DNA of 64,000 bases. It comes from Punctularia strigosozonata HHB-11173 SS5 (taxonomy: Eukaryota > Basidiomycota > Agaricomycetes > Corticiales > Punctulariaceae). Within the stretch, counting starts at the first letter, position 1. Every line of letters starts with the position of its first letter. Shown here one piece after another: positions 19,390-49,524 of the stretch. The stretch spans positions 366,613 to 430,612 of the forward strand of contig NW_006767443.1 in assembly GCF_000264995.1 (NCBI RefSeq), given 5' to 3'. A model generated the notes under the pieces. That model made no database searches and was not told where the DNA came from. It saw nothing but the letters and a program-made list of their open reading frames with translations. The translations under genes and the position numbers were made by a program.

Positions 19390-19876
19390 CGTAAACGCCG
19401 TCTAGCACGGCGAGGATGGTATTTTGTCGAGCAACAATAACTGACGGAACTCGGTATGGGATGCGTTGAGCAGGCACGGAGAGTTGGCTCCGGAGTTTCA
19501 GTCGACCAATCGGACAAACTTCGTTATGTATGTATTTGAGCCAGGGGGAACGCGTCGCGGACTCGCGCTCAACCAAGAAGCAGTGTTGGGCGAACTGCCT
19601 TTGATACCACACACAACGACAGCATCCGCGATCTCTACACACGCTTACTTGCATACTTATGCATGCCTTCGCGGAAAATATTGAATGTGTCCCGCGACGG
19701 AATGAGAAGGTGCGGAAGTGCGCATAATTCGCATCCGCGCTTCCGCACCTACCTCGAGCACATAAAAGCTAAGTATCCTGGTCACACTGATCTCCAGCAT
19801 TCTAGTTCTAGCCATCACCGCCGCTGCCAAAGATCTACCCCTATTTACACCTCTACCTATCTACAAGCTATCTAGA
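19390..19876. promoter_or_regulatory. Divergent promoter, serine dehydratase and orphan gene A
   Basis: The two start codons face away from each other across 487 bases. From about 19650 rightwards the sequence is shared, with gaps, with the other arm of the inverted duplication. A palindrome with 10-bp arms lies at 19709-19749, and a TATA-like ACATAAAAG sits about 110 bases before the start of the orphan gene. Confidence 0.5.
19709..19749. repeat. Palindrome in orphan gene A promoter
   Basis: Perfect 10-base arms GGTGCGGAAG (19709-19718) and CTTCCGCACC (19740-19749) enclose 21 bases that contain a further TGCG/CGCA pair. It lies about 130 bases before the orphan gene start. Confidence 0.8.
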
Positions 19877-20627
19877 ATGCTCGCAGGACTCGCGATCTTC
19901 ACCAGCCCTTGCATGGAGTACCTTGAGTTCACCAAAAACTACACCGCGCTCGGAGATGTCTACCGCGTCTACGAGAAGGAAGTGGCCGACGCCATCTCCG
20001 AAGAAGCCCGCGCCTTGGATCGGATCCTCGGTCTGATGAGCGGCACCATTGAGGGCGACGCCGACGACCTCGAACGTGCGGAATGGCGATTCAGCAACCT
20101 GCGCTCTCTGCACATGCTGGAGGGCGTCAGCGTCGTCATGCTGCGCAGGAAGAGGGAGGCGGCGGCGGTTGCAGATACTCACACCGTTGACTGCAAGGTA
20201 GACCGCTCTGCTTCTCCGACGTCCACCTCTTCCACAGCGCGGGCTCCCAGGGTCGACTTCAAGCTCAGGTTGCCCGCGCTTCCGAAGCTTCCTTCGTCTT
20301 CAAGGAGGCTGCGGAGGATGACGCGTCTGCTGCGGGGTTCTAGTACGTCCGCTGAGGTTTCGTTTTGCTAATGTCCGTACTAACCAACGTTGCTAGACCG
20401 AGTTCAAGTTCAAGTGCTTGAGAAGGAAGCCGAGGTGCTTGCTAAGCTCCAGGCCCTCATCGATCACGGAGTTTCCTTCCACCCCGAGCAGGTTGCGGAT
20501 CGGTACGCGGCAAGATACGGGGTACGTCCGCTCGCATCCTTGCCCTTCGTCGTCGACTCACCGTAATCGTCAGGATGAGTACTACATGTTCGTCATCAAA
20601 GCCCTGGCGAGGAGAGGCTGCGTCTAA
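19877..20627 (+). CDS. Duplicated orphan protein, copy A
   Basis: I do not recognise a family. Model: join(19877..20342, 20397..20521, 20574..20627), 214 aa. The N-terminal third looks alpha-helical with many charged residues (YTALGDVYRVYEKEVADA, ARALDRILGLM). The middle is a basic Ser/Arg-rich stretch (SSRRLRRMTRLLRG), and the C-terminus (EQVADRYAARYGDEYYMF) again looks helical. There is no signal peptide or membrane segment. Support for coding: copy B at 48575-49319 keeps all three exons and the same splice sites, exon 1 has identical length (466 nt), and the only length change is 6 nt in exon 2. The start is the first ATG, in the same place in both copies. A TATA-like element lies upstream. 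Confidence 0.7.
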
Positions 20628-22162
20628 GACGCCCTCGCGGGGCCTCGGGTGCGCGGCGGCGGCGCCCGATGGCTCCTGGGACTAGGGCGCGAGTCTCACA
20701 GGCACCGTGCCCCTCCACGCGCTCGAAGGGGTCGACGTCGTCGGCGTCGGCCCTGGAGGAGGTGGCACCATCCCCTATCTTCCGCACGCCGCCGACACAG
20801 AAGCACAGAAGACGAAACCGATGCGGAGTGTGTCCGAGTCTTCGAACCGGTTGGGCCCTGGGTCGTTGCGGCGGACGTGGACAGGAGGGAGAGAACACCG
20901 GCGACGCTCTTTGAGCGCCGTCGGCCCGTTCTTTCTCGATTCTTCCCGTTTGGTGAGGTTCGCGTCGATGTGTGGATGAAAATGCCCATGCGATGTGTTT
21001 CCTCATGCGACTTGGGTGTCCTTCGCGGGTTTGGAGAGGAGGGACGCAGTTGCTGGAGGACTTCCGGTAAGCTAGCTTCTCCCTCCCGTCTTTCTTCGAG
21101 CCTTGCTCACCTGAGTTAATCCTTAGGTCGAGAGCGGGACGCCGCGATCGCCTGGGATTCCTCCAGCAACCCAACAATTTGCCTCGGCGACGTCGGTGCG
21201 CCGGCTTGCAGGCCGGGATGTTCGGTACGTTTCTCGCTCCTACGTGTCGCCTTCGGCCTCTTGCTTACTCGGTCTTCTCCATCGCAGGCCGAGTTCGGGA
21301 CGCCGGGCTCGATCGACGTCCACGCGTCTGCCTCGAAAAAAGGGGGTTGGATGGAGTTGGAATGGGGAGAGTGGCTTAGATAGCTTCTTAGACGGTCGTA
21401 GATAAATAGATAGTCGTGGCACGGACACTGGATTTTTCGCGCTTAGCGTTCTGACGTTTGTTCCCTTTTTAGCCTTTACAGCTGCCTCTGGTCCTACTGG
21501 CCCTCCTGGTCCCCTGGTCCCTTGGTCGCTGGTTTGGTCCCTCCGGAGTTCAAGGACAAGCTTCTCCCAGAATAGGATCGCCAGTGCCTGTCGCTGGCGA
21601 TCCGGCAGCCGGCCTCTTCGTGGCCTGGGGGACTAGTACCCTTCGGGGGAAGCCAACGGCTGTTTCGGACTCTCGCATCTCACAGGAGCTCTCGAGACCG
21701 GTGCGCAGGTGAGCCCCGGTATTCTCTCTCTTCCTTCCTTCGACGCCTGACGACCAGTCACACGCATAGGTACCTCATTCAATAATTCCGATCGCCCTCC
21801 GGGGCGAGCGTATATGCTGTTGGTGAGCGCTCTACAGACTCGCTCGCAACCCGCGCACGTCGGCGGCACTGCACTTCGCGTACGTGTAGACACCGATCGC
21901 TACCTTCAGCAGGGCTCATGTATGTACTATCACTCGCATTCTTTGCTATCATACATACGACATGCATTACGGCTCCCTATGCGATACTGTGCTGCACAGC
22001 GCAAGATTTGGCAGTCGTTCAGTCAGAGAAAGTTATTGCGCGTGATTGTTACCCCGATGGAAGGGACTACGCGTTCGTTCGTTGTAGGCTCGCTCCCGGA
22101 TCCCACCAACAGGCGATGGAGTCCGACGATTTTCAAAGCTTCTCGTGTCGACCCGGACATGC
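20628..22162. other. 3' block of arm A, coding status unclear
   Basis: About 0.75 kb after the orphan gene is GC-rich and almost identical in the other arm. Intron-like segments with good sites lie at 21065-21126 and 21226-21288. The text after them, LGDVGAPACRPGCS then AEFGTPGS and ending WMELEWGEWLR, is open in both arms, and the differences I counted in the first part fall mostly at third codon positions. I could not join it to a start: upstream, every frame contains a stop in one arm or the other. It may be the tail of a second small gene or an alternative 3' end. Bases 21480-21545 hold a TGGTCC-rich degenerate repeat. Confidence 0.4.
21575..21603. repeat. Hairpin in arm A (10-bp stem, 9-nt loop)
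   Basis: GGATCGCCAG (21575-21584) and CTGGCGATCC (21594-21603) are perfectly complementary with a 9-base loop. The matching hairpin in arm B has T:A in place of C:G at stem pair five, so both sides changed together. Confidence 0.9.
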
Positions 22163-23190
22163 TCAAAGCGAAGGGGTGCTTTCACGACTGCGAGGGATTG
22201 ATGGGGATCGGACAGGAGGCGTATCACGGTGGACAGCATGAAATACGCTGCTCGGGATGACACTGCTCGCACTTCGATGCGTGTCGGAAGATGGTCGTAA
22301 TCGGCGGCGGACTTGGGACGGAGTTCTAGCCTCAGGTGCAGGCGGGCGCGAGACGGCTGCCTCTAGCCAGGCGGGTTTTCCTTCCTCGATGGGTGGCAGG
22401 TAATTGCTTGGTGAAAAGTGATCATTACGTGGCGGCGCATGTGCGAGAGCTTGAGACGTAGAGGAGAGGTCGCGAGAGACGTTATACGGCGCAACGGTCG
22501 TTGAGTCTTCGGTCGGCAGGTGTAAGGTAGCTCTATGCGCAGGAGCTAATACTCTCCGACGTGCCTATACCGGCGAAGGCTTAATCGTTTGCATCATCGA
22601 GTTGCGGGTTGTAGGGCTTACGTTGATCATCCAATTGTTGACTTGCGACATGCTCAGACCGGTTGCAGCGCAGAGCACATTCTTCTCTTCCTCGGTGGGG
22701 TACGGATGGTCCGAGTGTCGATGAAACCACTCTTTCAAGTAGTCGGTGACCGGTTTGGGAAGTTTTCCGCGTTGACGCGGGGCGCGTTCGACCAAGGCGC
22801 TGGCTTGCAGAAGGCTTTCGTGGGCTGCGTTCATTGCTGTGAACCCAGTTAAGAAGCCTTTAAGGTTGCCAGCATCTCCGGTGCTTATGTCCATGCGACT
22901 GAGATATGCGGATGGCGACGATAGCCTGAACACAGACGGGATTTGGCTGTTTGAAGGTCAATTCTCTGCAACGCTGGCTGTATCACAAGCTACTCGCCTG
23001 TTATTTTCCGTATTAGGCGCGGATGCCGGTCGACGCGTGAAATCGAGAAGTTGCAATCGCGCCACTGGGTAAGCACAGGTCAGATCGTTTGACACGAGCA
23101 TTAGAGAAAAACGAAGGTGACCGTACTTCGATCAGCGTCGAGATTGATGACGGGCTTGATGTCGTATAGAGCAACTTTGAGCTTCGCCAT
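22163..23190 (-). CDS. TALE homeobox (KN type) transcription factor
   Basis: Model: complement(22163..22564, 22622..22925, 22998..23064, 23127..23190), 278 aa. A homeodomain at about residues 99-149 reads LPKPVTDYLKEWFHRHSDHP, then YPTEEEK, then SMSQVNNWMIN joined across an intron to ARRR. The extra residues before YP and the helix-3 motif WMINARRR mark the TALE class of nuclear DNA-binding proteins, related to fungal Cup9/Tos8 and to mating-type HD1. The C-terminal exon is Ser/Pro/Arg-rich and likely disordered. The two upstream exons (starting MAKLKVALYD) are less certain; the join at 22997 uses a GC donor (AG|GCGAGT). No HD2 partner or MIP gene is nearby, so I do not call this a mating-type gene. 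The last about 200 bases are copied in arm B. Confidence 0.75.
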
Positions 23191-23312
23191 GGACCTTTCA
23201 CCGGACGTCTGGTACACGAGATTAGTCCGTCATGCTATTTTCCGTGAAAAGCAGGTAGAACCTACCATCATAATATAAGATGGATCTAAGTCGTGTACGA
23301 TAGCCATCTCCG

Positions 23313-24532
23313 CTAAGCTGCAGTTCTGTAAGGAGTTGAGAGTCCGCTTCGACGTTGCATACTACCACTTGCCTCGAATATGTAGTCGAATATGACATTC
23401 GTAGGGTCTTGCCACTGTCCAAACTGTTTTAGCTCCTCACCCATATTAACAGCAACGAGAAGGGCACGAACCGAACAAACGTCCCCGACAACATCGTAGG
23501 CGTCGTCTGTTTCGTCCTCTTGGAAGGGGCTATCGGTTACCGGTGTGCTGGAAGGTTCAGACACGTCATCACTATCACTTGCGTAGTCCAGACGATTATA
23601 TCCGGCGCCGGCCTTGAGTACCTTGGGCCATAGTCGAGAGCGATATCGAACGCGATAGCTTCGAACAAAGACGCATTGATTGTAGTCCCTTGTTAGACCG
23701 TCACTTGGAACAACAAGCGCGGATGCGTTGAGAAGTTCCTCCCCCGACGGAGGTGGCTCGAGTCGTTGCGGGCCATGGTTGTAGTGAGCGGAAGAGTCGA
23801 AATGCCAGCTTCCCCAGACATACGCCGACGCAGAGAGCATCACGGGTACGCCAGCCCTGAATTCCACGTTCAGTTGCCTTTCCGTATCTCCCGCATACGC
23901 GAACATCGCAAAGTCCTGCGTGAGGTCGTGTCCCGTTACAAGGCGGATGTCATCTGTGGATACGGCGTGGCCTTGCTCTCGCGCCCAACGAGCCCATGAT
24001 CTGGAGTGCTTTTTCAGGTAGTTGAGGTAGCGCTGTTCCTGGCGCGCATTGGCGATGTATGTCGGGAAGTTAGTGATCAGCGCCGCCCCCTCCTTGCTAC
24101 TCGTCTGGAAGCTGAAAGTGCCTCCAGCACTGGCCGGTGTGCTGTAAATTATCGTTCAGACTACGAAGCTTCAAACAAGGAGGAGCTACGAACATGTCCG
24201 AAGAACCTCCGGCCCCTGCGCCCAGCTGGCGGACGTATGTTGTATGTAAACACGTCCTCGGGTGTCGAGGCTGATCACGCTCGATCCATCCGACTTCGAG
24301 CGGCACGAAGTCTTCGGGTATGTCCACTCCGCGTCGACGGTCTCCCACGGGTTCTGCAGCTCTGAACAGCAGGATGAAGTGACCACGTTGTATGTAGCCG
24401 ACATCGCCGATAGCGACGCGATTGTAATCCTCGGAAGGCGCCGGCTGCCTAACCATTCCTTTCAACGCACTGATCCAAAGTGCCAGCCGACCTAACGAAC
24501 CAGAGGGGAAAGCCGTGCCCTAGTAGCATCAT
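23313..24532 (-). CDS. Basidiomycete hypothetical protein with possible frame break
   Basis: Function unknown. Model: complement(23313..24141, 24194..24448, 24501..24532), 371 aa. The text resembles an expanded agaricomycete family that I know only as hypothetical proteins, with blocks GHGFPLW, RVAIGDVGYI, a mid block GHDLTQDFAMFAYAG, then AGVPVMLSASAYVWGSWHF, and DGLTRDYNQCVFVRSY. No signal peptide or membrane segment is evident. The N-terminus is not settled: the ATG at 24532 directly follows an acceptor-like CAG, and an open stretch upstream (to 24718, with FFKTLFNATGQDELEMAE) may be an earlier exon. At the 3' end another frame at 23222-23410 (VVVCNVEADSQLLTELQL) continues naturally, which suggests a frameshift near 23400. 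It may be decaying. It lies 122 bases upstream of the homeobox gene on the same strand. Confidence 0.55.
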
Positions 24533-24718
24533 CTGCCTAACACCGAGCTTGATAAGCATAGGACGCGACTTCCAATCTATATAGTCTATGACGGACCTTG
24601 CATATATTTGCCATGGCTCCTCAGCCATTTCGAGTTCGTCCTGTCCGGTAGCGTTGAACAGAGTCTTGAAGAAGCTCCCGTGCTCGTTGTCAAGCTGCAC
24701 TTCCCAGTCCATGCACAA

Positions 24719-25288
24719 CTTTCCGATCTTCCTCCATTGCTATACAAACTCACACGGAAACTCGTGCCATGCCCGGCACGGCTTGTAATAGTATGGCTCT
24801 GAAGTTGTGAACTAAAGTTAAAGCAAGAAAAGCCGGACGAAAGATGCTGCTTGGACTTCAGTTTCCGCTTGTAACTAGAGCTCTCCATGGAAAGGCATTG
24901 GGCGAAGAACAAAAAGGTAGTAGCTCCGTCGAGAGAGGGTCGCGCCCGGGGCCCCGGCACTGACTCAACACGTGATCATGAGCGCAGCCAATCAACGCTA
25001 TCGGGAGCGGCGCGGAGAACACTCCCTTGAGCCTGTACTTGATCCACTTCATGGTCGCCGGACACGATGTCGTCTTCGACGCTGAGATGCACCCCTGCGC
25101 TCCGATAAGCACATTCCTCAAGATCGATATGCATTACACTTCGAGGTTGAGTATCACGATGCATTCTTGCGGGGAAGGGGCTCGCAAAGTCTTATGTGGC
25201 GAGGTCTACCAACTTCGAACGACTTTCGACATTCTGCATCGCGCTTTACAACGATAACAAGATCCCCAAATCCCAGCTCAGAGACCCT
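24719..25288. other. Interval with no settled gene
   Basis: No model is supported. A minus-strand open stretch at 24858-25121 (VLIGAQGCISASKTTS, MKWIKYRLKGVFSA) has a protein-like composition and could be an exon of a gene or of a relic, but no start or splice partner could be fixed. Confidence 0.3.
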
Positions 25289-26347
25289 TTACCACGGATT
25301 CTTCGCTCCATCGAAGTTGAGGAATTGACCGCCCGCGGACTCCTGCGTGGCATTGTCTATCACTTTCAGCAGCATCGGTGCGGTCTCATCTACGGTCTTG
25401 AATTCGGACAGGGACGCGCCTAAAGCTGGTTCATGCTCTACGGCAAAGGCAGCTGTGGTATACGATCATCAGCAGCTCAGGCAAGCCGCCGAAAATCACA
25501 ACTTACACATATCCGTAGCAACGTGGCCCGGGCAAATAGGGAACATCACTTCGTACACCCCGTTAGCAGTGGGATCCTTGATACTGATATCAAAGGAACG
25601 TTGGAGACGCACCCAGCCCGTCCTTCTCGTGCTCATAATACAGCTTGCGGATCATGTAGTTCAAGGCCGCCTTCGATATGCCGTACACCGCTGTGCCGAA
25701 TAGCGCGCTTGCGCCTCGCTCGAGGCCACCACCTTGCGACGTCATTGCGACGAACTTAGGCGGAGCGGACCCAGACGAGCGGCTCGATTTTAAGAGCGGC
25801 AAAGCGGCTTTAAACAGTACGAAGGTGCCGATGACGTTCACCTAGACAAATTGCAGTTGAACGCGACGGCCTCATCGACGTTATACGAGCAATACGGACC
25901 TCGAAATGCTCCCTCAGCTCTTCCTCAGAAGCCTTGTACGCAGGTCCATACGCATGGAATATACCTGAAATCCATACTTAGTCCGAACGCACATCGAAAC
26001 TGAATATCCGTGGCACTTACCGGCGTTGGCGATGACGACATCCAATCGACCGGCCTTCTCTTTCACCAAGGATTTCGCTTCCTCGTTGCTCATGACATCG
26101 CCAGACACCAGCTTCACGATGTGCAGCTTTCCAGGGCGCTCAGCGGTTAGAGTTTACAGATTCGTGGCGGCATCCGGGTTTCGCGTTCCAGCGAATATGA
26201 TGGTATTCTCGCGGGCCGACAGTGCTTTCACGAAACCGAAACCTGTGGACCCCCATGCGGCAATCAGCATCGGCCCGTTCACTATTATTGAATGAACTCG
26301 CCGATTCCACGGTTCGCGCCAGATACCAGATATACGACAGGGGCCAT
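25289..26347 (-). pseudogene. Short-chain dehydrogenase copy A, inactivated
   Basis: This is a paralogue of the intact SDR gene at 45280-46336, with recognisable text from MAPVVYLVSGANRGIG to the shared end GAKNPW. Exon 1 (26302-26347) has the same 46-nt length as in the intact copy. Later pieces are VNVIGTFVLFKAALPLL, the YGISKAALNY active site and the final exon ending at 25289. A TAA at 26154-26156 interrupts exon 2 where the intact copy has CAG (Gln), and the first intron begins with GC instead of GT. Outside these two marks most codons are kept, so the loss seems recent. Family role: NAD(P)H-dependent ketone or alcohol reduction, often annotated as norsolorinic-acid-ketoreductase-like in basidiomycetes; the substrate is unknown. 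Confidence 0.8.
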
Positions 26348-28156
26348 GGTATGAGTCTTTGTTCCTCTCTCGCTTTCAACACAGGCTTTGTTGGAATATG
26401 AGAATTCAGTGCGCGTTCAGTGCTCACTACTAATCTGATCGCTGTACACGTATATTTACTCGCGCTCGCATCCGATGTACCTGACGCGCTTGCCCAGCAA
26501 TCTTACCCCTCGCATTGCAGACGGGTCAAGCGCGCTCCGTGCCCGACATGCCGCCCGACATTTAACAGGCTTTATATATACATTCCATGCGCCCGGACCC
26601 TCTACTACTATGTTCTATTGTAACGCGCCCAACGCAAACACGCCCGCCTACGGCCTGCACTGCCACGAACAAGTAGGCCGCACCTCGTTATCGCGCGCCC
26701 CTCCACCTCCACCACACGCCGTATTTCGTTATCGCGCACTCGTCGCCGCCTGGCCTACACCCACCACCCGCTCTCGACCTCGACGACCGCCCATGCGCTC
26801 GCAGCGCGCGTGGCACGCGACACTCAATCCGACGACGGCACATGCGCCTGAGGCCCCTCGCGATACAACGATCCCGGCGCCTTCGGCGCGCGTTTCGGTC
26901 AACACCAAACGCGGCGCGAGCTCGATCATAACGGCCTCGAATGGTCGATCTCCACCACCACCTCCTGCTCGACTTTTCGAGTCTTTTCGACCGGCTCTCC
27001 GCTCCGCCTACCGGTGCTCGAAACACTACGCGCTGCTTGCGCATCGGCGCGCACTTACTCTCGGCATACGCAACACTAGGCACGCGACGGGATTGGACGA
27101 TAGGGACGAGTTGTAGGGTGTAAAAGGACAACTCGTATGTAGTTCTCGAGGAGATACGGCCCCCAAATCGCATATCGTTACCCGCTCTCGTCTCCGTCCG
27201 ACTCCGTCTCTGAGTGCGTATCCGTTCCGCGCACGCTTCTCTGTCGTCTCCGCCTCGCCCACGTCCGCTTTACACACATCTATTTCCCCTATTCCTACCT
27301 ACTCTATCTACCCATTCGGCAGCCGCTGAACCCGCCTCTTGGCCTCGCGCACATATCTTTCATTTTGGATTCGGCCTAGCCCACCCGCCGGTCTGCACTA
27401 CACTATATCGTCAATACCGGGACATGGTTTGGCGGGGACGAAATTGGTTGACATGTGGGTTCAACCCACACCGTGGAAGTCTCACGGGGATTGAGTTTCT
27501 AGTGCGCACTGCGTCAGGGTATATCCAAGTGGTAAACGAACCCGGCAGCGGTCAAAGTTCTCCGTGCGGGAGCCCGCCAAAAAAGGCAGCGCGTAAAAGC
27601 TCCACCCCACTTCGCCCGTGCAGCAATTACGTACGATCTTATACTTCCTCGACGTGGGTTCATGCAACCTATGAGGCGAATGGTTGGACTCGTTAGCGCC
27701 TATATTCCGCGGTATTTCCTGGGCGTGGGTCTACCTAGCGAGATGACTCACCGAGCACTGAACACAAGGAGTCTAGGGAAGGCGATTACTTTGTGCCCCG
27801 CCCATCGACCTATATCGATGCGATAGGAGCTCGCACAAATTATAACCACGCGTTTATCACATGGAACTGCTGGCCATCTCTACACATCCCAGATCACTAA
27901 GATAGACAAATGCTCACGGGGCGATTGAAGAAAACCGATGATGAGTATGTTCCATTGTTGGGGGCTAAGCGAGCGTGCTCACTCGGAAGGCTTGCAGGTG
28001 ACTCAGATGTCATAGCCAGGCCGTCGCGCTGGATGTATCATGACTACTGGACGTACATATCGGCAAATTGTATGCACCGTCACATTCGGGAGGCACCTCA
28101 CATCAGTCCAAGCAAGGTGGGCGGGCATTTTCACTTCCCGCACTATGCATACCAGT
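26348..28156. other. Gene-free 1.8 kb interval
   Basis: No supported gene. Bases 26600-27120 are C-rich on the plus strand and open in several frames on both strands, the longest 213 codons, without any recognisable motif. Bases 27200-27350 are pyrimidine-rich. The rest is of mixed composition. Confidence 0.4.
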
Positions 28157-36448: not shown

Positions 36449-36801
36449 TTTGATGTCTGTCGGAGGGGCGGGCGGGGGATGCGGACTCGAGCCAGTGAGA
36501 GAGGAAAGCGTGAGGGACTGTACAGCGCGTTCCCACGCTCAGCCACACCCTCATAACTTCACTTCCTTGCGTCTTTGCACTTTCTTTCCTCACCCTCGAG
36601 TAGAATCCACAGGTCTTCGCGTAGGCGATTAAAGGTGCATCCATCGTATCCTTACGTTTGAAGCCCAGAAAGCTGAAAAGACCTGCTGCAGTGATCCGTG
36701 GCTACCCGCTAAACCTTTTCAGCCCTCGTACATAACATCAAAGTACGAACGAGTACTCCCGTTTCCGTCGTTCAAGATGCTCAACTCTTGTATCGGGATA
36801 G
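36449..36801. promoter_or_regulatory. Shared promoter of RPS15 and RPP2
   Basis: Two ribosomal protein genes start in opposite directions across 353 bases, which would allow joint control. A short inverted pair CGTAC/GTACG lies around 36727-36747. A pyrimidine-rich stretch precedes the P2 start. No TATA box was seen. Confidence 0.55.
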
Positions 36802-38849: not shown

Positions 38850-41827
38850 ATGCAACCCGAGGCTACAACATCCACGGGATTGTCAGACTCTGACTCTTTC
38901 GCGAGGAGGAATACATCCTGTGCAGAATGTCGACGTTCCAAACTAAAATGTGATAGGTCAACACCTAAGCTACATCTCCAGATTATTAGATGTGCTCAAT
39001 TGTGCTGTGATGACAGGCTGGTACCGTGTTCGTCGTGCAAGAAGCGCGGATGCGCGAATCTTTGTCCGCATGGCACTTTGGTCGCGGTCAAAGGAAATCA
39101 GTGCGACCTTCTATCGCATTGCTGCAATCAGCGTTCCGACTGACCGATTCCGACAATTCCGACAGAGCATTAGCTGCACAGTCTAAGAAGCTGGCGGAGC
39201 AAGTGAAGCAAATGTCGCTCAGGATCAGGAACCTGGAGATTGAGCTCGAAGCCGCCCGGGCCCTCCAGGTTTCTCGAGTCTATGAGCGTGTATCACGCAG
39301 TTCGACACCGCTTGAGAACGTTTCGCAGGTGGTGGCGCCGGGCATGCGAAGTACAAGCGCAGCAGGTACTCTGATTTTCGGAAACGATGGGCAAGTGCGC
39401 TACCATGGAGAGACGGCGGGATCGGAGGTGCGAAAGTTCGTCTTTGATTGAGACCTCGCATTCACATTGATGGCTTTAACCTCAGCACTTGGCATCCTGC
39501 CTTGTGGTATGTTAACTGCGAGTGACATGAACTATGCTCATACATTCGTCCAGGAGCAGCATGGTTCCGATCCTCAGAAACCTCGAGGTCATCGAGACCT
39601 CGGGCTGGCATCAAGCATCATTGAACTATCAAGAACATTCCCTTTCGGTATGTTCCGCCAATAATCGTATATATATGAATCTCAAATTGGAATTGTAGGC
39701 GACCGTCGAAGCACGGAAGTTTGTGACAAGGAGGATTTTGCTCAATACATCCCGCCGCAAGAGCAAGCCATACATCTATTCAGCCAGTACGCTGATGAAT
39801 GCGGATGGATGTGAGTAACGACTATTCACCTCGGAAATCTCGACTTTGGTTGACTAGACGGGCGCAGGTTCCGACCCATGGTTTGTAGCGATGCCGAGGC
39901 GCTCATACACGACGTTTATAACGAAATCCCCGGCGGGCCTCTAGGCAATGTTGACCTCCACAGGCTGTCGCTTTTCTTCACCCTGCTCGCCCTCGGGGCC
40001 CGCGCACAGGCGAATACCTCTTCTCCAGACGCCGAGCGGTACTACACTCTAGCGTGCGCGACCTTTGCCCTAGATCGGCAGCTTCTACGGCCATCGCTCC
40101 AAAGTGCTCGAACGTTATTTTTCATGGTCCTATACGAATGGTTCTTCGAAAGTGCGGACGTCGAGCGACCGTGGATGCTCTTGGGGCTCTGCGTTAGTGC
40201 ATGTCAAAATCTGCGCCTTGAGCGCGAACCTGCTTGGTCGTCAAACATGAACGAAGCAGAAGCGGAACCACGCAGAAGGATGCTGTGGGAGCTCCTTACG
40301 CTCGCGACCGTAACCGTGAGCGCCCATCCTACAGCCATTGCTGCCAGTCCTCGACGAAATTTTGTAGTCCATTCACGTCGGTCGGCCCTCCGCTCTGACC
40401 ATCCACAACATCGACGCACATTTCCCGGAGGACCCAAAGACAGTCGAGGATGCGGATGGTCATGCTGACTTTGGTTGTACGTTTCCACACGGTTCGACCA
40501 TATCCATCAGCTCACCACTCGTCCAGTCCACGCATGGAAGTTTCGTTATGCTGGTGAGCGTTCGGTCCTCCGTTCGGCGACGATCGCTATGCTGACACGT
40601 TTCCGTTATCACAGCCTCTTGTCTTTCTCGGGTTACAGATCACGTTTTAGGACCTCCGTCTGCCTACGCGGAACTTCTGGACGTGGATAAGGAAATCAGA
40701 GTACGAGGTTCCTACAGCATTGGCTGCACTGTGCTCACCGGATTTCAGCGTTATCCAGTTCCCGAACAGCTCCAAGTTCCCACCCAGGACCGTGACCCCT
40801 CTTGCTCGTGGTCGATCACTCCGCAATGCGCCCTGCAGCAGTACTGGGTATGCCCCTTGGCTGTAGAAACCGTCGCCAGCATTCTCATCGTCTTAACAGG
40901 TCATGTTCTATAAGGAAAGCAGTATGTCAATCTGCGACATTCGGACATTTCCGATCTAACCCGAAGATGTTTGAAAAGCGTTGCTATACATTCATCGGTC
41001 GTACGCCGGGCGAGCTCTGAAACATTGCCCTCACAACCCACTGTTACACGAATACGCACCTTCGGTGCTGGTGCTTTACCGCTCCGCATCGCGGCTCATT
41101 ACTACGGTTTGCGATCTCCACTCTATACATCCTGGGGCAATTCGTTCTGTTTCCTTATTCTGGTCTGGGATATTCTCTGCTTGTGTGAGTACCGCGGTGC
41201 TCCCAGCGCATGTGCCATATCAGATGCTGACGACTTCGGTTAGATCTCTCTCGGATCACTCGTCGTCGGGAGCCCGTCGTGCGCCTTGGCGGAGAGCGCT
41301 CTAGCTACCTTGGAGAAAGGTTATCTACTATACCAAGAGAGTGGACAGGGCTCAACTCACCCATCTACTCTAGTGAGTATCTTATATATCATATACTGTG
41401 AACCGTGCAGTAATCAGTAACCCGATACTAGGCTGCCCTCCATAAACTATTACCTAGAGCTCGTCGAGCCTTTGACTCGATCAGAGGGGTCGCCGTCGCT
41501 CACGACATCGCTGTGACTCCCGAGACTTCTCTGTACCTCCAAGACAACCTCGGGCTCCCTGCAGACGAGCTCCAAGTCATGGGAGGCTTCGGCGGCGTCC
41601 TGAGATTGCGAGTAGATGAACTGCAAAGCGTCCTGGAGCCGCCCTTCGCGGATGTGTCACTTCAGGATGCTGATATCGCCATCCCAGACGGATCCCAACA
41701 ACTCGGCCCGGGATGGCAGGGCGACCTGCAAATGTCACATCATCAATACATGCCGCCCGTGAACACATGGTTCGACGACATCTTCAGCATACCCGCCCAG
41801 CCTCCCATCATCAACCACTCTTGGTAA
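38850..41827 (+). CDS. Zn(II)2Cys6 transcription factor with fungal regulatory domain
   Basis: Model: join(38850..38956, 39017..39100, 39166..39427, 39486..39506, 39554..39647, 39699..39810, 39868..40309, 40368..40473, 40527..40553, 40615..40700, 40749..40847, 40900..40921, 40979..41184, 41244..41372, 41432..41827), 730 aa in 15 exons. A nuclear regulator. The zinc cluster has Cys at 24, 27, 34, 40, 43 and 48/52 (CAECRRSKLKC, VPCSSCKKRGC), followed by a coiled coil (KKLAEQVKQMSLRIRN). The central Fungal_trans domain runs from DLHRLSLFFTLLALGAR through RRRMLWELL, VGRPSALTIHNIDAHFPED and LLYIHRSYAG to the end NHSW. Every join keeps phase. A 60-nt segment at 39269-39328 could be an in-phase intron. 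A sister of the partial factor at the left edge in its zinc cluster; targets unknown. Confidence 0.88.
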
Positions 41828-42053
41828 TGCTTAATAGGCATCCCTAAGATGACGCTGAGCTATATATTCTCGATGCTTGTGCTCCCTGCTTCCAGGTCTC
41901 GCAACTAGAAATTTGCATACATATCGTACTGGTTTTATAATTCTTGCATGTCGACCCACCAGTCCATGCTGTATCATATCACAGCTTGCTGCTACCGTTG
42001 TGTAGAATACAAAGAGATCCTGATCGCTAGATCAGCGGCTTTTGCATTTACCA

Positions 42054-43514
42054 CTACATGCTTTGCGCGCTCAGTCCATCAATGATCTGCGTGGAGTTCG
42101 CGACAAATCCCAATCCTAAGCCACGACTCAGTGAAGCTGTTGTCACGGACATCAGATCGAGTACGTACCATTCGCATTGAAGATGACCATCTCCGTAGCG
42201 AACTCCGGGGAGCTGGTCGCGGAGGCGTCCTGGACGAAGATGGCGTCGTATCCCTTGTAAGCGGCGTCCTGCATATCGTCGCATGAGCCGTCAGCAGGCG
42301 CAACCTACGCGATCTCCGGCTCACCACGAAAGTTCCCTACATGTCATCGCGTCATCAATCGTGATTCTACAGTGCATGACTGGAGTGTACACACAAACAC
42401 ACACTGATCCGTATTGACGCCTGTGATGAAAACTGTTGAGATGAGGTTGTCCTGGAGGAACATGTTTCCAGGCGTCTGCGCCCCCCAGAAGCAGCTGAGG
42501 CGATCTAGTGGTAGACCATCAGTACATCAACATAATAGTTTAGACATTCGACATACTTTTAGGAAACTGGACGTCGGTTCCGTTTGCAATACCCTCTTGG
42601 GCGAGGTCCCAGAGAGGACCGTATTGCTGAGCCGTAAAGGAGCTCCCGTCAGGCTGCGTCATGATCACGCTTCCCGTTTGAGGACTGACTGACCTGGGCA
42701 TTCCACGACCCTGGCACCAGCTTGCGACCCATATCCACCTCTGTGCCGTTATCGTTGATCATGCCCATCTCATCACCCATGGTCATGTTCGGGTTGCCGC
42801 CGCTCGCGAAGTTGAAGAGGAACGCGGGCGGCATGGTCAGGAGATCATATTCGCTGAGACCCCACTGGCACCTGCATAGCGAACTCCGTCAACCAGACGC
42901 AACCGCAGGATGTGCGATGCAGGTAAACTATCATGACGAACCATATTACCTTGGATCCAGCAGCTCGGAAAGCATGGACAAGGTCGATGTTCGGCTGGAC
43001 CACCGCACGGCCAGCTGAAGAGGTGGACAAGTTGGGGTGCAGGAAGAAGTCTAGACGACGGCGGGCAATAAATCGATAAGAGTTTGTCTCTGCGAGGAAA
43101 GAACGTACTTTGCATGTCTGTAAGTAGTTCATGGCGACGGTGTTTGCTACGTATCTCGAACGGAATAGCAAAATACTATACCTATGATGACCAACGCGCT
43201 CCTCTCTGGGTTGATGAGTATCTGCCTGTTCAATTATCCGTGAGGGATCCGTTCACCAAAACCAGAGCAGCTCACTTGTTCGTGTTGGTCTGAATGGACT
43301 TGGCACCCGTGGAGTTGCCTCGGGTGAGGTCGAAACCATCAGAGCCGTACGTCCAGAAATTGTATAGATTCCCGAGGCTGTCCGATGATATATTGGCCCG
43401 CGGTCGTAGATGATTGAAAGTGCTGGTTCCTTCAGCGCCCGTGAATCCTGGCGTAGATGGCGCAATGGACAGGGCTTTTAAGGCCAGAGATATCACGGTC
43501 AGTAAAGCGATCAT
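42054..43514 (-). pseudogene. Isochorismatase-like hydrolase with a reading-frame break
   Basis: Exons: complement(42054..42115, 42169..42268, 42325..42336, 42395..42504, 42557..42653, 42694..42864, 42938..43050, 43109..43117, 43182..43227, 43276..43514). The family (cysteine hydrolases) has a catalytic Asp in LVIIDMQNFFLHP and a nucleophile Cys in VNTDQCVFGT; both are present. Other marks: WGLSEYDLLTMPPAF, GRKLVPGSWNAQ, WGAQTPGNMFLQDNL and AAYKGYDAI. A hydrophobic N-terminus (MIALLTVISLALKALS) suggests secretion. Two exons have 9 and 12 nt. In exon 43182-43227 the frame from exon 1 (KQILINPER) must shift by two bases to reach SALVII; a GAGAGGAGAG run there looks like a two-base slip. It may be a recent pseudogene, a polymorphism or an assembly error. 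Otherwise complete. Confidence 0.75.
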
Positions 43515-44291
43515 TGTGTGCAAAGAGTGGAGAGTGTGCGATCTCCCGAGTTTGGGTGGACGAGTAAACACCTCTATCGTGACTGGGCACGCCGGTTTTG
43601 TACGGCCAAAGCGACAACTCGGCGCTCCGTAAGCGTACGCAAGCGCTTCCAACACGTTGGATGCATGATAACGCGAGGTGCATGACCAGGCCCCACGTAT
43701 CGCGAAGGGTTTGCGCGTTCGGGAAGTTCTCAAAGTGAATACGGAAGAGACGAGAAGTGGCAAGGGCACGGTAGCGTGAGGGCCGATGACCTCCATAGAG
43801 AGCGACGAATCACAACACGCACTCTTCCGATGTATAAATATCTTTTCGATCGTTCAAACGTTCACTGTCGACGGATGATATCGGCCATCACCAGCGTGTC
43901 GTGTTAGATGGCCCACAGGCAACGCTACCCTGGAACAGTCTGTCAGGTACTTCAACACGTTGCAAGGCTGATGCAAGCATATTCGGTAAAACGCACCAGA
44001 ACATAACAAAGCCCCCGAGAGAAGCGAGATATATCAGCGCCAACTGGCTTAAGCTTGCAGGAGGACATGTGACCCTCAGGTGGTTTGAACCCCGGTGAAC
44101 ACGGGATAGCAGCATCTCTAATCTGAGGCTTCAGACTCAAACATTGTGGAGGCTAGTTCGTTTCGGATTTTGAGTCTTGTTATAAGTGTGTTCAAGCAGA
44201 TCGCAAATGCGCGGACCGGGGGGGGGGGGAGCAAAGAGGCGGTCCAGCGTACCGTCCGTGGTAAATCATCGCTCAACGAAGCGCCTTATAT
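43515..44291. other. Intergenic interval
   Basis: No supported gene. A run of 12 G occurs at 44218-44229. The minus strand to the left holds the hydrolase gene's promoter (GTATAAATATC-like text near 43832-43842 on the plus strand). Confidence 0.4.
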
Positions 44292-44960
44292 TTACCACGG
44301 ATTCTTTGCCCCGTCAACGTTCGTAAACTGCCCTTTCTCGTTTTCCCGTGTGGCTTTGTCTATGATGAGCAGCTGTGCCACAGTATCGTTAACTGTTTTG
44401 TACGGTGTCGCCCCCAACGGAGGTTCTCTCTTCACGCTGTCCTTCCCTACGATGTTAACTCGTCGGCTATCTGGACCATGCAAGCTCAGAAAGTATATAG
44501 CTTACCCATGTCGGTGTCGACCGGACCGGGGCAGGTAGGGAAGATCACTGCGGGTATAAGCACGTTCCTGTGTTAGAGGCTACGGGTACGGAAGATATAG
44601 CTGACCACCTACCCAGCCCATCCTCCGCATGCTCAAAGTGCAATTTGCGAGCCAGGTAGTTCTTAGCGGCCTTCGAGATACCGTACGAGTCCATCGGTAC
44701 AGGTCACGTTGCTCCAGGCTCGAGGCTACCAATTTGCGACGAGATCATTAAGAACTTCGGCGCGGTCGAGGAAGCCTTGAGCAGCGGTAGCGCAGCCTTG
44801 AACAACACGAATGCTCGACAACGTTCACCTGTTTGCACGTACAGGTGAACAATCGCACGTGGATATCAACAGAGCGCGTCGCGTCACTGTCGCGCCGCGC
44901 GCTCCTCATCGCTCGTGATCTATCTCCGCCTCGGAATAGTACTTAAGGACTCCTCTTCCA
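44292..44960 (-). pseudogene. Short-chain dehydrogenase copy C, decayed
   Basis: This is a relic of the same SDR family as at 45280-46336, only about 0.3 kb downstream of that intact copy on the same strand. The 3' exons are clear: VNDTVAQLL and the end GAKNPW (stop at 44292), VIFPTCPG, and YGISKAAKNYLARKLHFEH. Further 5' the text FVLFKAALPLLKAS remains, but the reading frame is broken more than once and the N-terminal nucleotide-binding exons cannot be found. It is older or faster-decayed than copy A. Confidence 0.75.
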
Positions 44961-45279
44961 ACAATCTGACTATGCGTATACGAACCGTCATGTTATGCAT
45001 TGGGGCTGAGTATGTCTCAAGTGAGCAACTGGACGAAAAAAGCTACATCAATCTTCCCCGCTGCAGTTTCCGATCTTCCATCAGTTAGGCTGATCAGACG
45101 GGCTTAGCTCCTACTAGTTTTCGGCATGCGCGCAGGACTAATTCGGGTATCCAAAAGCCTGCCACTATACACGAGCGACAGGAGTTCTATAGTGCTGAAC
45201 TACCTTCTACATCAAGACCCTTGGTATCCCGTTGTACATGGATGAGGATCTGCAGACGCGTGTTCTGTCGATGTTCCCA

Positions 45280-46336
45280 TCACCACGGATTCTTTGCGCC
45301 ATCAAAGTTCAGGAATTGACCGCCCTCGTTCTCCCTCGTGGCGTTGTCTATAACCTTCAGCAGCAAGGCGGCAGTGTCATCCACGGTCTTGAACTGCATC
45401 GAGCGTACGGCTTCGTCGCGCTCTGCGCTAAACTTGGCTGTGGCATGGTGATTTCAGCTGCATCGAGCACGCAGGGAGCATTATCACCTACCCATATCGG
45501 TCTCAACCGCACCAGGACATATGGGGAATATCACTGTGCGCCTTTCGTCAGTAACCTTGTCATGAAACCCATATCACGGGACTCCAATGGACCGCACCTA
45601 GTCCGTCCTTCTCATGCTCAAAGTGCAACTTTCGGATCAAATAGTTCTCGGCTGCCTTTGATACTCCGTACGGCGTGCTCTGGAACGGCAAACTTGCCCC
45701 GAAATCGATACCGCCGGCTTGCGACGACACGGCAACGAATTTTGGGGGCGCGGACCCCGAAGATTTGCTAGCTTGGAGGAGCGGCAATGCGGCTTTGAAC
45801 AACACGAAGGTGCCGACGACATTGACCTGGAAGTACCTGGATGTGAATGTGACGCTTCTCGTGACAAAACATACGAACGTCAAAAGTTTTCCGCAGGTCT
45901 TCTTCTGAAGACTGGTATGCAGGGCCGACCGAAAGGTTCACCCCTAATGACACCATCATCTGGATCAGATGCACATGTCACCAAGTTTGAATGGCCCGTA
46001 CCAGCGTTGGCGATGACGACATCCAGACGGCCGGCCTTTTCTTTCACGAAGGAGATGGCCTCTTCGTTACCCTTGAGATCGCTCGACACCAGTTTGACGA
46101 TGTACAGCTTTCCCGGTCGCTCGGCTGCTAGCTTCTGGAGATCTTTGGCGTCGTCCGGGTTGCGCGCTCCTGCGAACACGACGGTGTTCTCGCGAGCGGA
46201 CAAGGCTTTCACGAGACCGAATCCTGTGTGGACATATGCAAACCGTCATCTGTTGACCGGCCAGGATAACTCGAGGAATAGAACACCCACCGATCCCGCG
46301 GTTTGCGCCAGACACTAGATATACGACGGGGGCCAT
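45280..46336 (-). CDS. Short-chain dehydrogenase/reductase, intact copy B
   Basis: Model: complement(45280..45437, 45492..45533, 45598..45826, 45879..45943, 46002..46223, 46291..46336), 253 aa, a normal SDR length. The cofactor motif GANRGIG lies at residues 10-16 and NAG follows DVVIANAG. The active site is Ser145/146 (VAVSSQAGG), Tyr164 and Lys168 (YGVSKAAEN). The substrate loop PICPGAVETDM and the end GQFLNFDGAKNPW complete the fold. All six exons are open and in phase. In basidiomycetes such genes are often annotated as norsolorinic-acid-ketoreductase-like carbonyl reductases; the true substrate is unknown. It is the only undamaged member of four copies in this window (others at 25289-26347, 44292-44960 and 49990-50535). 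Confidence 0.9.
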
Positions 46337-46849
46337 GTTTCACGTAAGTTACTAGCTCCCGAACGGTCGATATGCACATATATAAACACCTCGTACACCT
46401 CGAGGCTCGCCATCGTATCGACCATCATCGTGACGCCAATGGGTCTGACAAACAATCGGAGATGATTAAGCCCCATCCCACATCGCCAGGCCAAGCTTCC
46501 AAGGCGGTCTCCTACCAATAGTCGAGCGCTTTGCAGTGCTGCCCCTTTCCTAGGTACAAGTGCTGACTCATTGACACCGATAAGGGATACATCGCGTGGA
46601 TTGTCGCCATCGGCGACTTAGCAATAATGACCTTACAAATTCTCTGGTAGACAGGCTTCTCAAAAATAATGCACATCCGATCACGATTGCCTGCGCGCTC
46701 TCCGCAATCCGCTGCCAATGTGCATAGATCTTATCACAGGCGCTCATCGAACGCCTACTTCATCGCGGTATGCGATGTTGTATGACATTGTACGATGCTT
46801 GCTCTTTACTACACTATTGTCGTGTCGCCTTCGTCTGTGGTGAGAAATA
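46337..46849. other. Intergenic interval, SDR promoter side
   Basis: No gene seen. The left end holds the promoter of the intact SDR gene, with TATATAAACACC at 46378-46389 as a TATA-like element on the plus strand (about 45 bases upstream of its start). The right end meets arm B. Confidence 0.4.
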
Positions 46850-46859
46850 TTGGCTTCTG

Positions 46860-47095
46860 TGCGGCCTAACTGGAGGTGGCCGTCTCGCACCCGCTTGGTC
46901 CTGAGGCGGGAACTTCGTCCCAACTCCACCGTCGAGTACGAGCATATGCATCTTCCGGCACGCATCGAAGCGCGAGCCGGAGCAGTGCATTTCATGCTGT
47001 CCACAGTGGCACGCATGCTATCCGATCCCTTCAATCATCGTAGCCCTGAAGATATCCCTCTGAGTATGTCCGAGTCAACACGAGACGTTCCTGAA
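46860..47095 (+). pseudogene. Truncated 3' piece of the TALE homeobox gene
   Basis: Bases on this strand match the last part of exon 4 of the homeobox gene at 22163-23190 (for example ACGCATCGAAG, TTTCATGCTGTCCAC and CCTGAAGATATCCC-like stretches), with small gaps. No homeodomain-coding exon is present, so it is a fragment carried by the duplication. Confidence 0.65.
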
Positions 47096-47607
47096 GATTG
47101 TTTGTCGATCCGCCGCATGTCGCCGGGATCCGGGGACAGGCGCAGAGCAAAGTCACGCGTAGTCACTTCCTAAAGGGTGTCAATCATGCTCTGACAGAGG
47201 AAGCGTATTGTATTTCGGGGGCATGACAGCACAAAACCACGGGTAATGGTGCATACATACAAATTGAATTGCGAGATGCGAGATCATGTCGAATGAGCCC
47301 TGCTGAAGGTAGCGATATCGACACGTACGCGAAGCGCAGTGCGAGCGAGTCCACAGAATACACAGTGGGCTTACCATGATGAACCGGCCCTGAAGCCCAG
47401 TTATGCTCGTTCCCAAGAACGAACAGAACATCGATGTGTACCTATGCGTGTCACTGGACATGAGATCTTGAAGACGGAAAAGAGAAAAATACCGAAGCTC
47501 ACCTGTGCACCGGTTTCGAGGGCTCCCACGAAATGCGAAGGTCGAAAACAGCCGTTGGCTTCCCCCGAAGGGTACTAGTCCCCCAGGCCACGAAGAGGCC
47601 GGCTGCC

Positions 47608-47636
47608 GGATTGCCAGCGACAGGCACTGGCAATCC
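47608..47636. repeat. Hairpin in arm B (10-bp stem, 9-nt loop)
   Basis: GGATTGCCAG (47608-47617) pairs perfectly with CTGGCAATCC (47627-47636); the 9-base loop is identical in sequence to that of arm A read on the same strand. Stem pair five is T:A here and C:G in arm A. Confidence 0.9.
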
Positions 47637-48574
47637 TATCCTGGGAGAATCTTGTCCTTGAACTCCGGAGGGACCAGACCAGCGACCAAGGGACCAGGGG
47701 ACCAGGAGGACCAGAGGCAGCTGTAAAGGCTAAAAAGGGAGCAAACGTCAGAACGCTAAGCGCGAAAAATCCCGTGTCCGTGCCACGACTATCTATTCAT
47801 CTACGACTGTCTAAGAAGCTATCTAAACCACTCTCCCCATTCCAACTCCATCCAACCCCCTTTTTTCGAGGCAGACGCGTGGACGTCCGTCGAGCCCGGC
47901 GTCCCGAACTCGGCCTGCGATGGAGAAGATCGAGTGAGCAAGAGGCCGAAGGCGACACGTAGGAGCGAGAAACGTACCGAACATCCAGGCCTGCAAGCTG
48001 GCGCACCGACGTCGCCGAGGGAGATCAGTGGGTTACTGGAGGAAGCCCAGGCGATCGCAGCGTCCCGCTCTCGACCTAAGGATTAACTCAGGTGAGCAAG
48101 GCTCGACGAAAGACGCAAGGGAGAAGCTAGCTTACCGGACGTCTTTCAGCAACTGCGTCCCTCCTCTCCGAACCCGCGAAGGACACCCAAGTCGCATGAG
48201 GAAACACATCGCATGGGCATTTTCATCCACACAACGACGCGAACCTCACCAAACGGGAAGAATCGAGAAAGAACGGGCCAACGGCGCTCAAAGAGCGTCG
48301 CCGGTGTTCTCTCCCTCCTGTCCACGTCCGCCACAACGACCCAGGGCCCAACCGGTTCGAAGACTCGGACACACTCCGAATCGGCTTCGTCTTCTGTGCT
48401 TTTGTGTCGGCGGCGTGCGGAAGATAGGGGATGGTACCACCTCCTCCAGGGCCGACGCCGACGACGTCGACCCCTTCGAGCGCGTGGAGGGGCACGGTGC
48501 CTGTGGGACTCGCGCCCTAGTCCCAGGAGCCATCGGGCGCCGCCGCCGCGCACCCGAGGCTCCGCGAGGGCGCC

Positions 48575-49319
48575 TTAGACGCAGCCTCGCCTCGCCAGGG
48601 CTTTGAGGACGAACATGTAGTACTCATCCTGAGAACGAGGATTAGTTCGTGAAGAAGGGTGGGGACGGGAGCGGACCTACCCCGTATCTTGCCGCGTACC
48701 GATCCGCAACCTGCTCGGGGTGGAAGGAAACTCCGTGATCGATGAGGGCCTGGAGCTCAGCAAGCACCTCGGCTTCCTTCTCAAGCACTTGGACTTGATC
48801 TAACAACGTTGGTTAGTACGGACATTAGCAAAACCAAACGCGAGTAGACGTACTAGAACCCCGCAGCAGACGCGTCATCCTCCGCAGCCTCCTTGAAGAC
48901 GAAGGAAGCTTCGGAAGCGCGGGCAACCTGAGCTTGAAGTTGACCCTGGGAGCCCGCGCTGGGGAAGAGGTGGACGTCGGGGAAGCAGAGCGGTCGACCT
49001 TGCAGTCAACGGTGTGAGTATCTGCAACCGCCTGCGCCTCCTTCTTCCTGCGCAGCATGACGACACTGACGCCCTCCAGCATGTGCAGAGAGCGCAGGTT
49101 GCTGAATCGCCATTCCGCACGTTCGAGGTCGTCGGCGTCGCCCTCGACAGTGCCGCTCATCAGACCGAGGATCCGATCCAAGGCGCGGGCTTCTTCGGAG
49201 ATGGCGTCGGCCACTTCCTTCTCGTAGACGCGGTAGACATCTCCGAGCGCAGTGTAATTTTTGGCGAACTCGATGTACTCCATGTGAGGGCTGGTGAAGA
49301 TCGCGAGTCCGGCGTGCAT
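48575..49319 (-). CDS. Duplicated orphan protein, copy B
   Basis: Unknown family. Model: complement(48575..48628, 48681..48799, 48854..49319), 212 aa. It is the paralogue of the gene at 19877-20627, with the same three exons and splice sites. It differs by scattered substitutions (for example THTV context kept, MEYIEFAKNYTALG against MEYLEFTKNYTALG) and a 6-nt in-frame shortening at the start of exon 2, so the reading frame has been preserved since duplication. Start and stop are equivalent (MHAGLAIF to ARRGCV). The helical N-terminus, basic middle and helical end are retained. Its promoter carries TATAAAAA at about 49431-49438 (minus strand) and a long palindrome at 49472-49524 that differs from the one in copy A. 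Confidence 0.7.
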
Positions 49320-49471
49320 TCTAGATAGCTTTTAGAGAGGTAGAGGTGTAAATAGGGGTAGGTCTTTGACAGCGGCGGTGATGGCTAGAACTAGAATGCT
49401 GGAGATCAGTGTGACCGGAACACCTGGGTTTTTATACGCGCTCGATGGCAGGGAGTGCGGAAGTACAATAT

Positions 49472-49524
49472 TTGCATCGTACCGTCGCGGGACGCGTTCA
49501 GCATTCCGCGACGATACGATGCAA
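49472..49524. repeat. Long palindrome upstream of orphan gene B
   Basis: TTGCATCGTACCGTCGCGG (49472-49490) and CCGCGACGATACGATGCAA (49506-49524) form a 19-bp stem with one mismatch and a 15-base spacer. It lies about 150-200 bases upstream of the copy B start. Confidence 0.85.

Follow-up and report, generated by a model that had tools for sequence, protein, structure and literature searches.

A predicted HDV-like ribozyme in the noncoding 3′ part of an eleven-copy orphan gene family of Punctularia strigosozonata

What are the two long inverted arms found in the genome of the basidiomycete Punctularia strigosozonata HHB-11173 SS5, and what keeps them alike? The arms, A and B, lie in a stretch of 64,000 nucleotides (here called the window; positions 366,613 to 430,612 of contig NW_006767443.1, or C11:366613-430612), with a gap of 24.5 kb between their ends. 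An earlier note on this DNA had described them as an inverted duplication with a promoter, a three-exon orphan gene, a GC-rich 3′ block and a hairpin, and all of these are indeed common to both arms. First detected as three inverted blocks of 94, 94 and 87% identity, the arms form a single BLAST match of 2664 columns at 85.9% identity (19740-22372 against 49463-46864), and base-by-base alignment sets their limits at 19647..22378 on the plus strand and 46864..49526 on the minus strand, at most about 15 bases from those first given. The hairpin belongs to a larger structure that the note had missed, as it is the J1/2 stem of a putative ribozyme of the hepatitis delta virus (HDV) type. The arms are probably two of 11 paralogues of a small orphan-protein gene that carries this ribozyme in its noncoding 3′ part. 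Assembly of inverted repeats is difficult, and the note had named a faulty assembly join as a possible source of the pattern. However, the arms are 14% apart, have different flanks and nine further relatives, and are matched by three comparable pairs elsewhere, which makes an assembly artefact or a mis-joining of haplotypes the least probable of the explanations considered.

In copy A, the putative fungal-type HDV-like ribozyme occupies 21564..21664 of the plus strand, with the predicted cut between 21563 and 21564; in copy B it occupies 47547..47647 of the minus strand, with the predicted cut between 47648 and 47647. Its first helix, P1 (CTCCCAG/CTGGGGG; 21564-21570 with 21625-21631 in copy A), is followed by the J1/2 hairpin (21575-21603), P2 (GGCAGCC/GGCTGTT; 21604-21610 with 21658-21664), an extra G, and P3 (GCC/GGC; 21612-21614 with 21622-21624) with its loop L3, TCTTCGT (21615-21621). 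The 3′ strand of P1 leads into the P4 region, AGTA / CCC-TTCG-GGG / GAA (P4 at 21639-21641 and 21646-21648, loop E at 21635-21638 and 21649-21651), then into C-CAAC and the 3′ strand of P2. This order of helices is that of HDV ribozymes, which have an L3 of the form U...CG. and a J4/2 cytosine followed by N-A-A/G. Both features, as well as a C-G pair at the predicted cleavage site, are present in all 11 copies and in four diverged ribozymes described below (L031-L034). The nested double pseudoknot P1-P2-P3-P1′-P4-P2′ is likewise found in 11 of 11 copies, each of which keeps the J4/2 cytosine and every P1 and P2 pair; L3 is kept too, apart from one T-to-A change in copy H. Also invariant in the family is AGTA...GAA with its TTCG-capped hairpin, which fits a P4 partly replaced by loop E, AGUA/GAA being what we take to be the loop E signature.

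In the main text of Li and Breaker (2017; PMC5640933), 230 fungal HDV variants from 26 species are described, set apart from the classical ribozymes by a C-G pair at the cleavage site, a loop E within P4 and one more nucleotide, usually C, between P2 and P3; constructs of two variants were shown to cleave experimentally. The element described here shares with those variants the nested double pseudoknot, the cleavage-site C-G pair, the loop E in P4 and, apparently, a single inserted P2-P3 nucleotide, and differs from them, as characterized there, in its inserted G and its variable J1/2 hairpin of about 29 nucleotides. Its architecture points to an HDV-like self-cleaving ribozyme of the fungal variant type, an assignment in which the helix order was set before the features of Li and Breaker (2017) were known and the P2 register, extra nucleotide and loop E label were assigned only afterwards. 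It is very likely that the RNA cuts itself just before 21564 and 47647.

The ribozyme element, found at no fewer than 11 places in the genome, is the most conserved stretch measured. Between representatives of six lineages, mismatch in the element is 1.4% when J1/2 is left out and 6.1% when it is included. The corresponding values are 48% for coding exon 1, 42% for exon 2, 24-29% for the 3′ block, 17% for the 100 nucleotides before the ribozyme and 47% for the 42 nucleotides after it. Across the 11 copies, 65 of the 68 columns outside J1/2 are invariant. These figures bear on a plainer account, in which the arms are dispersed gene duplications and the ribozyme is an inert fossil, left by a retrotransposon that inserted long ago into the 3′ untranslated region (UTR) of the ancestor and since spread by duplication and conversion. 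Retrotransposon ribozymes do exist in this genome, and pairs of copies are homogenized. Yet the six representatives differ by 17-51% in the other blocks measured, and neutral DNA that old would not have retained, in all 11 copies, the J4/2 cytosine, every pair of P1 and P2, and L3 (with the one change in H). An inert fossil is quite unlikely.

Loose pattern searches of the genome yielded seven further stretches, L031-L037. Complete diverged ribozymes lie in L031 (C4:1728385), L032 (C1:2438677), L033 (C6:1717120) and L034 (C4:504.5-504.6 kb, minus strand), while a parse requiring GCCTNNNCGNGGC gave no ribozyme in L035-L037. In one of these searches, matches were accepted only at 0-1 mismatch, as allowing up to 3 mismatches gave 103 matches for a reversed control against 49 for the real pattern. 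L031, L032 and L033 turn alike at the first base of P1, which is the predicted cut, with no BLAST match before it (the L032/L033 match begins one base earlier), and L031 continues into an endonuclease (EN), a reverse transcriptase (RT; 4e-36) and RNase H. The same ribozyme type thus heads a non-long terminal repeat (non-LTR) retrotransposon in this genome, located at L031:4386-8999 and L038:88-5445 (C4:1728385 onward; EN, RT and RNase H in L031/L038) and from L032:4178 onward. L032 aligns to L031 over 2,432 columns, mostly coding. L033 holds a 110-base ribozyme copy (L033:4120-4229) that is 99% identical to L032, and the readable part downstream of it has no further match. In L034, the ribozyme (L034:4029-4116, minus strand) follows an open frame of 823 residues, also on the minus strand, at a distance of about 400 bases, and is perhaps a second ribozyme behind a host gene. 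A search with the first 175 bases of the retrotransposon returned L031, L032, L033 and two members of the 11-copy family only. The ribozyme core was absent from a viral contig collection and from genome contigs of bacteria and archaea, a result uninformative on other fungi.

HDV-like ribozymes are reported at the head of the non-LTR retrotransposons R2 (PMC3774820) and L1Tc/ingi (PMC4035085). As in R2, where the cut falls at the 5′ junction (PMC3774820), the ribozyme of L031-L033 sits where the copies turn alike, and the R2-type layout, in which the element starts at the ribozyme and runs into EN and RT, is found in L031. It is not found in the 11-copy family. Unlike R2 and L1Tc/ingi as described in those sources, the family is conserved upstream of the ribozyme rather than downstream, and the ribozyme marks a 3′ end.

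Some of the evidence for the ribozyme has limits, and several observations weigh against it. The nucleotide inserted between P2 and P3 is G in all copies, where C is usual, and this G might pair with the final base of J4/2. Standard pairs fill 99.4% of pair cells in the 11 copies, a count that is uninformative since the core hardly varies (227 of 500 shuffles score as high). Covariation that supports the fold comes from L031-L034, whose P1 and P2 have other sequences but stay paired: they keep 14, 14, 14 and 13 of 14 P1/P2 pairs, with 7, 7, 7 and 6 pairs changed on both sides relative to the family; here the place of P2 was fixed and P1 was sought over 76 positions, so that a small part may be chance, the P1 and P2 of L033 are identical to those of L032, and one P2 pair of L034 is broken. 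A scan of 344,412 bases with a descriptor of the HDV double pseudoknot gave the 11 copies plus a single further place, against 0.77 hits expected by chance (from 693 hits in 308 Mb of Markov sequence), but this measures rarity and is no independent prediction, as the descriptor was written after the element had been seen, on the basis of general HDV features. Finally, Rfam gave no ribozyme match up to E 10 in 20600-21800, where its one hit at that threshold was a chance-level snoRNA match at 20883-20939; the long J1/2 and the fungal features presumably fall outside the Rfam models.

The family itself emerged from a search of the genome (33,569,446 bases in 32 contigs) with arm A, which found pieces at a minimum of 11 places on four contigs; the counts are lower bounds. 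Beyond A and B in the window, the copies are C (C11:450 kb), D (C14:363 kb), E and F (C12:565 and 574 kb), H and G (C11:610 and 618 kb), I and J (C2:952 and 984 kb) and K (C2:1716 kb). Each holds a TATA-like box, a palindrome, the orphan protein gene, a conserved noncoding tail and the element of about 101 nucleotides. The tree of 20450-21664 joins A/B, G/H and I/J as sisters at 100/100 support and E/F at 92/93. Every one of these four local pairs has inverted orientation (three are convergent, one is divergent), although with n=4 this alone has a chance of 1 in 16. Around I and J (C2:953981-964023 and 980125-983328), a neighbouring gene occurs in tandem and inverted copies, and two frames there have no Pfam match.

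The earlier note had also considered a mobile unit of unknown type. Read this way, the family would be an element of its own, with the palindrome at one end and the ribozyme at the other, spread by transposition. The occurrence of copies on four contigs fits such a unit, as do blocks that end 0, 6, 36 and about 118 bases after the ribozyme. Their 5′ ends, however, differ widely between pairs (about -1850, -1560, -2270 and beyond -3300), the D/F match spans 4.6 kb and extends to both sides, and most copies keep their introns. Furthermore, no transposition gene was seen in the unit, and no target-site repeat was seen by eye in the inspected alignments of the arm ends, of which no systematic search was made. 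The suggestion of a mobile unit is not supported by this evidence, and we consider it very improbable.

The orphan protein gene of copy A has three coding exons on the plus strand, at 19877..20342 (reading frame, with GT at 20343), 20397..20521 (GT-AG limits) and 20574..20627 (with the stop codon), and its gene model encodes 214 residues. Copy B runs from start codon to stop at 48575..49319 on the minus strand, also with two introns. The frame is open in both arms and the stop lies at the homologous place in the copies. In the 153 codons of exon 1, A and B show seven synonymous and nine non-synonymous codon differences. The seven of 11 copies aligned over contiguous frames are 32-37% identical to copy K, with 21 invariant columns. 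No Pfam family was found for the protein at E 0.1 in the four copies scanned, bar one sub-threshold match, and no PDB sequence match was found below E 0.24. An AlphaFold model of copy K is poor, with a mean predicted local distance difference test (pLDDT) score of 63.4 and a predicted template modelling (pTM) score of 0.44, and Foldseek gave 0 matches to it at E 0.001. Retrotransposition of the copies was rejected for most of them, since their introns are kept; copy K (L019:4098-4730) lacks intron 2, precisely, and keeps the ribozyme.

The note had suggested that the duplication might be kept by selection for the orphan gene, and this stands only in part. The protein is conserved in the seven aligned copies, but conservation is far stronger in the noncoding ribozyme than in the coding exons, and C, F, I and J, all of which keep the ribozyme, have altered protein frames. 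Exon 1 of copy C is not readable through in a single frame, the start codon of F is ACG, and most of the exon 1 core is missing from I and J.

Between the stop codon and the ribozyme lies an apparently noncoding 3′ block with conserved predicted RNA hairpins (20630..20770, plus strand, in copy A). Its mismatch is lower than that of coding exon 1, and it thus evolves more slowly. A protein reading is not favoured, as mismatches in eight chosen copy pairs have no codon periodicity and none of the frames stays open in every copy; some copies may nevertheless use the block as coding sequence, with open frames of about 220 codons crossing it in sense in E and F and in antisense in A, B and D. The predicted hairpins of 20625-20790 keep 94.9% of pair cells and include seven pairs with double changes (2 of 500 shuffles), while RNAalifold found little structure in 21333-21486. 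This block is pertinent to another explanation of the element, namely that it serves in the 3′ UTR as a folded RNA or as a binding site for a protein, acting in stability or localization, with self-cleavage incidental or lost. The conservation, apparent lack of coding and partial structure of the remaining 3′ block agree with this explanation. Nonetheless, the invariant positions of the element coincide with those of the catalytic fold, which its relatives maintain while varying the sequence of P1 and P2 freely, and so such a role, with cleavage incidental or lost, appears unlikely, if less so than an inert fossil. Directly before the ribozyme (21486-21558 and homologous places) there is a run of CCTGGTC/CGCTGGTC-like repeats of variable length.

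Splice-like signals flank the ribozyme in all 11 copies. A 3′ splice-like signal, TAGC...CAG/CTGCC, precedes it in each, and a GTRAGY lies 33-52 bases after it in 11 of 11 copies compared with 1,626 of 20,000 random windows, in downstream sequence that is otherwise not conserved. On account of these signals, the ribozyme can be assigned to an exon that follows the stop codon. In copy A, the putative internal exon would span 21483..21708 on the plus strand, with a 3′ splice-like CAG before it and GTGAGC after it, followed by a putative intron at 21709..21769 (GTGAGC...CTGAC...CATAG).

Upstream of the gene, the 11-copy alignment places a TATA-like box, accompanied by an initiator-like stretch, at 19762..19767 on the plus strand of arm A and at 49430-49436 on the minus strand of arm B; transcription of arm A probably starts near 19785. 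Upstream of the box lies a palindrome, at 19708..19750 in arm A (14 of 15 bp), where it is displaced towards the gene relative to the other 10 copies, and at 49472..49524 in arm B (18 of 19 bp). Palindromes of 14-27 bp with at most one mismatch occur in 11 of 11 copies, the longest in G (27 bp), but in 17 of 1,473 random 200-base windows (14 bp or more), which were taken from the same loci and thus include some palindromes of the family. The palindrome arms vary among copies yet remain complementary. In an alignment of 10 of the 11 copies (8 distinct rows, with A omitted because its longest palindrome is displaced, and K partly aligned with 5 of 8 pairs), 11 of 19 pairs have changed on both sides, and 0 of 500 shuffles score as high. 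Since it lies upstream of the TATA-like box, the palindrome may be a DNA element, a separate RNA or a product of replication errors that correct palindromes. A Helitron-type 3′ hairpin was considered, by eye only, and set aside as its identity.

The likeness of the arms is uneven. From the presumed transcription start to 21664, A and B differ by 1.6-5% in most blocks, and by more in 21127-21220 (10.6%), intron 2 (20.8%), the 5′ flank (19%) and the sequence after 21664 (21-26%). Arm homology stops near 22375, inside an open frame (22166..22564, minus strand, starting ARRRVLAP) that is read as the last exon of a homeobox gene; it has no Pfam match of its own and adjoins a Homeobox_KN exon at 22568..22957 (minus strand; Pfam 4.3e-17). 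As the note had proposed, the tail of this gene lies within arm A, arm B ends inside the continuing open frame, and A is supported as the nearest source of the segmental duplication, B and C being truncated alike within the homeobox exon and each having a similar SDR gene beside it. The match of copy C (C11:449623-451530) to arm A stops at the very base where that of B stops. SDR-type genes near A, B and C are similar (25285-26348 and 45145-46508 in the window; C11:452021-453394), and those adjoining B and C are 86% alike. The shared truncation and SDR neighbours indicate that B and C descend from one truncated copy.

The downstream flank agrees with this descent. At +300 to +800 from the ribozyme, identity per 100-base bin is 73-87% for B-C, 59-76% for A-B and 61-84% for A-C, and beyond +800 B and C continue at 85-99%. 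In the core tree, by contrast, A groups with B (100/100) and C falls outside. Since the core and the flank of A, B and C tell conflicting histories, A and B were homogenized by gene conversion between the inverted arms. A and B differ at 3 of 101 positions inside the ribozyme and at 11 of the 42 right after it (p = 9e-5), so that the 3′ edge of conversion falls on the ribozyme's final base; in the four pairs, the blocks of high identity end 0 (A/B), 6 (H/G), 36 (I/J) and about 118 (E/F) bases after it. Conversion in inverted pairs is documented for the pair in the window only. Parts of the data fit less well. At +100, A-B identity (72%) is not below that of B-C (66%), at +200 the values are 64 and 66, and the pairs do not clearly differ in either bin. 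Nor does a single conversion tract explain intron 2 (10 of 48 sites and 12 gap columns between A and B) or 21127-21220 (10 of 94 sites). Gene conversion between palindrome arms is well known, for example from primate Y palindromes, where inverted arms are likewise kept alike while their flanks diverge. Unlike those palindromes, the pair described here has about 2 kb of homogenized arm, a 24 kb spacer and a conversion edge at an RNA element. No special role was found for the 24 kb between the arms.

How these parts might work together can be outlined with decreasing confidence. The chances are about even that the ribozyme derives from the 5′ end of a retrotransposon and that selection for the gene now maintains it. 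Somewhat less likely, though a real possibility, is that the ribozyme would cleave the transcript of its own gene at a point beyond the coding region, the output depending on splicing versus self-cleavage. The cut would yield a message with a defined, tail-less 3′ end, or would destroy messages that include the ribozyme exon. The inverted pair A/B stays alike by exchanging sequence through gene conversion. Taken as a whole, this amounts to a retrotransposon ribozyme domesticated as a self-destructing or 3′-end-making exon and multiplied with its host gene, giving 11 genes, a race between splicing and self-cleavage, arms held by conversion and palindromes kept by compensatory change, a synthesis that we offer tentatively. 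The position, conservation and signals of the ribozyme can be read from the sequence, while its status as an exon, its cleavage and its effect are inferred. An mRNA that contains an active ribozyme should be expressed at a lower level, which speaks against this scheme. Similarly, the strict 3′ splice pattern (CTGAC and TTAG) occurs in 8 of 11 copies and the strict pattern of the whole downstream intron in 5 of 11 (292 of 20,000 windows), and no 5′ splice site was identified to pair with the 3′ splice-like signal. At the DNA level, the 9 kb L031 stretch matches the 11-copy loci only at the ribozyme, which does not show the direction of transfer.

Two observations stand apart from the family. 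The sole Rfam match in the window is the snoRNA snR75 (RF01185, 62.8 bits) at 6110-6215 on the minus strand. Elsewhere in the genome, 25 exon matches to STE3-type receptors all fall within C12:141735-199840, as in a basidiomycete mating-type region, and would fit a mushroom-forming basidiomycete.

HDV-like ribozymes are scattered through genomes, and their cellular roles are largely open. An open-access literature search, mostly of titles and the starts of abstracts and without supplements, found no report of a gene family such as this. The mammalian CPEB3 ribozyme, which is proposed to interfere with splicing (PMC10919898), is similarly an HDV-like ribozyme kept inside a cellular gene; it is intronic there, whereas the ribozyme of P. 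strigosozonata is multicopy, apparently exonic and downstream of the stop codon. In the main text of Li and Breaker (2017; PMC5640933), the gene associations of fungal HDV variants are widely variable, and neither 'retrotransposon' nor 'transpos' occurs. The 11-copy paralogous family differs from the variants described there in that the ribozyme is its most conserved part, and L031 links the same variant class to a non-LTR retrotransposon. A known class of ribozyme thus occurs in a new setting: no part measured of this multicopy host gene is better conserved, and the ribozyme may have been domesticated from a retrotransposon. The possible donor, a retrotransposon with the same ribozyme type at its 5′ end, is still present in the genome. 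The ribozyme keeps a constant position with respect to promoter, open reading frame and splice-like signals, and its diverged copies serve as natural variants, so that this family makes selection for a cellular role of the ribozyme directly testable.

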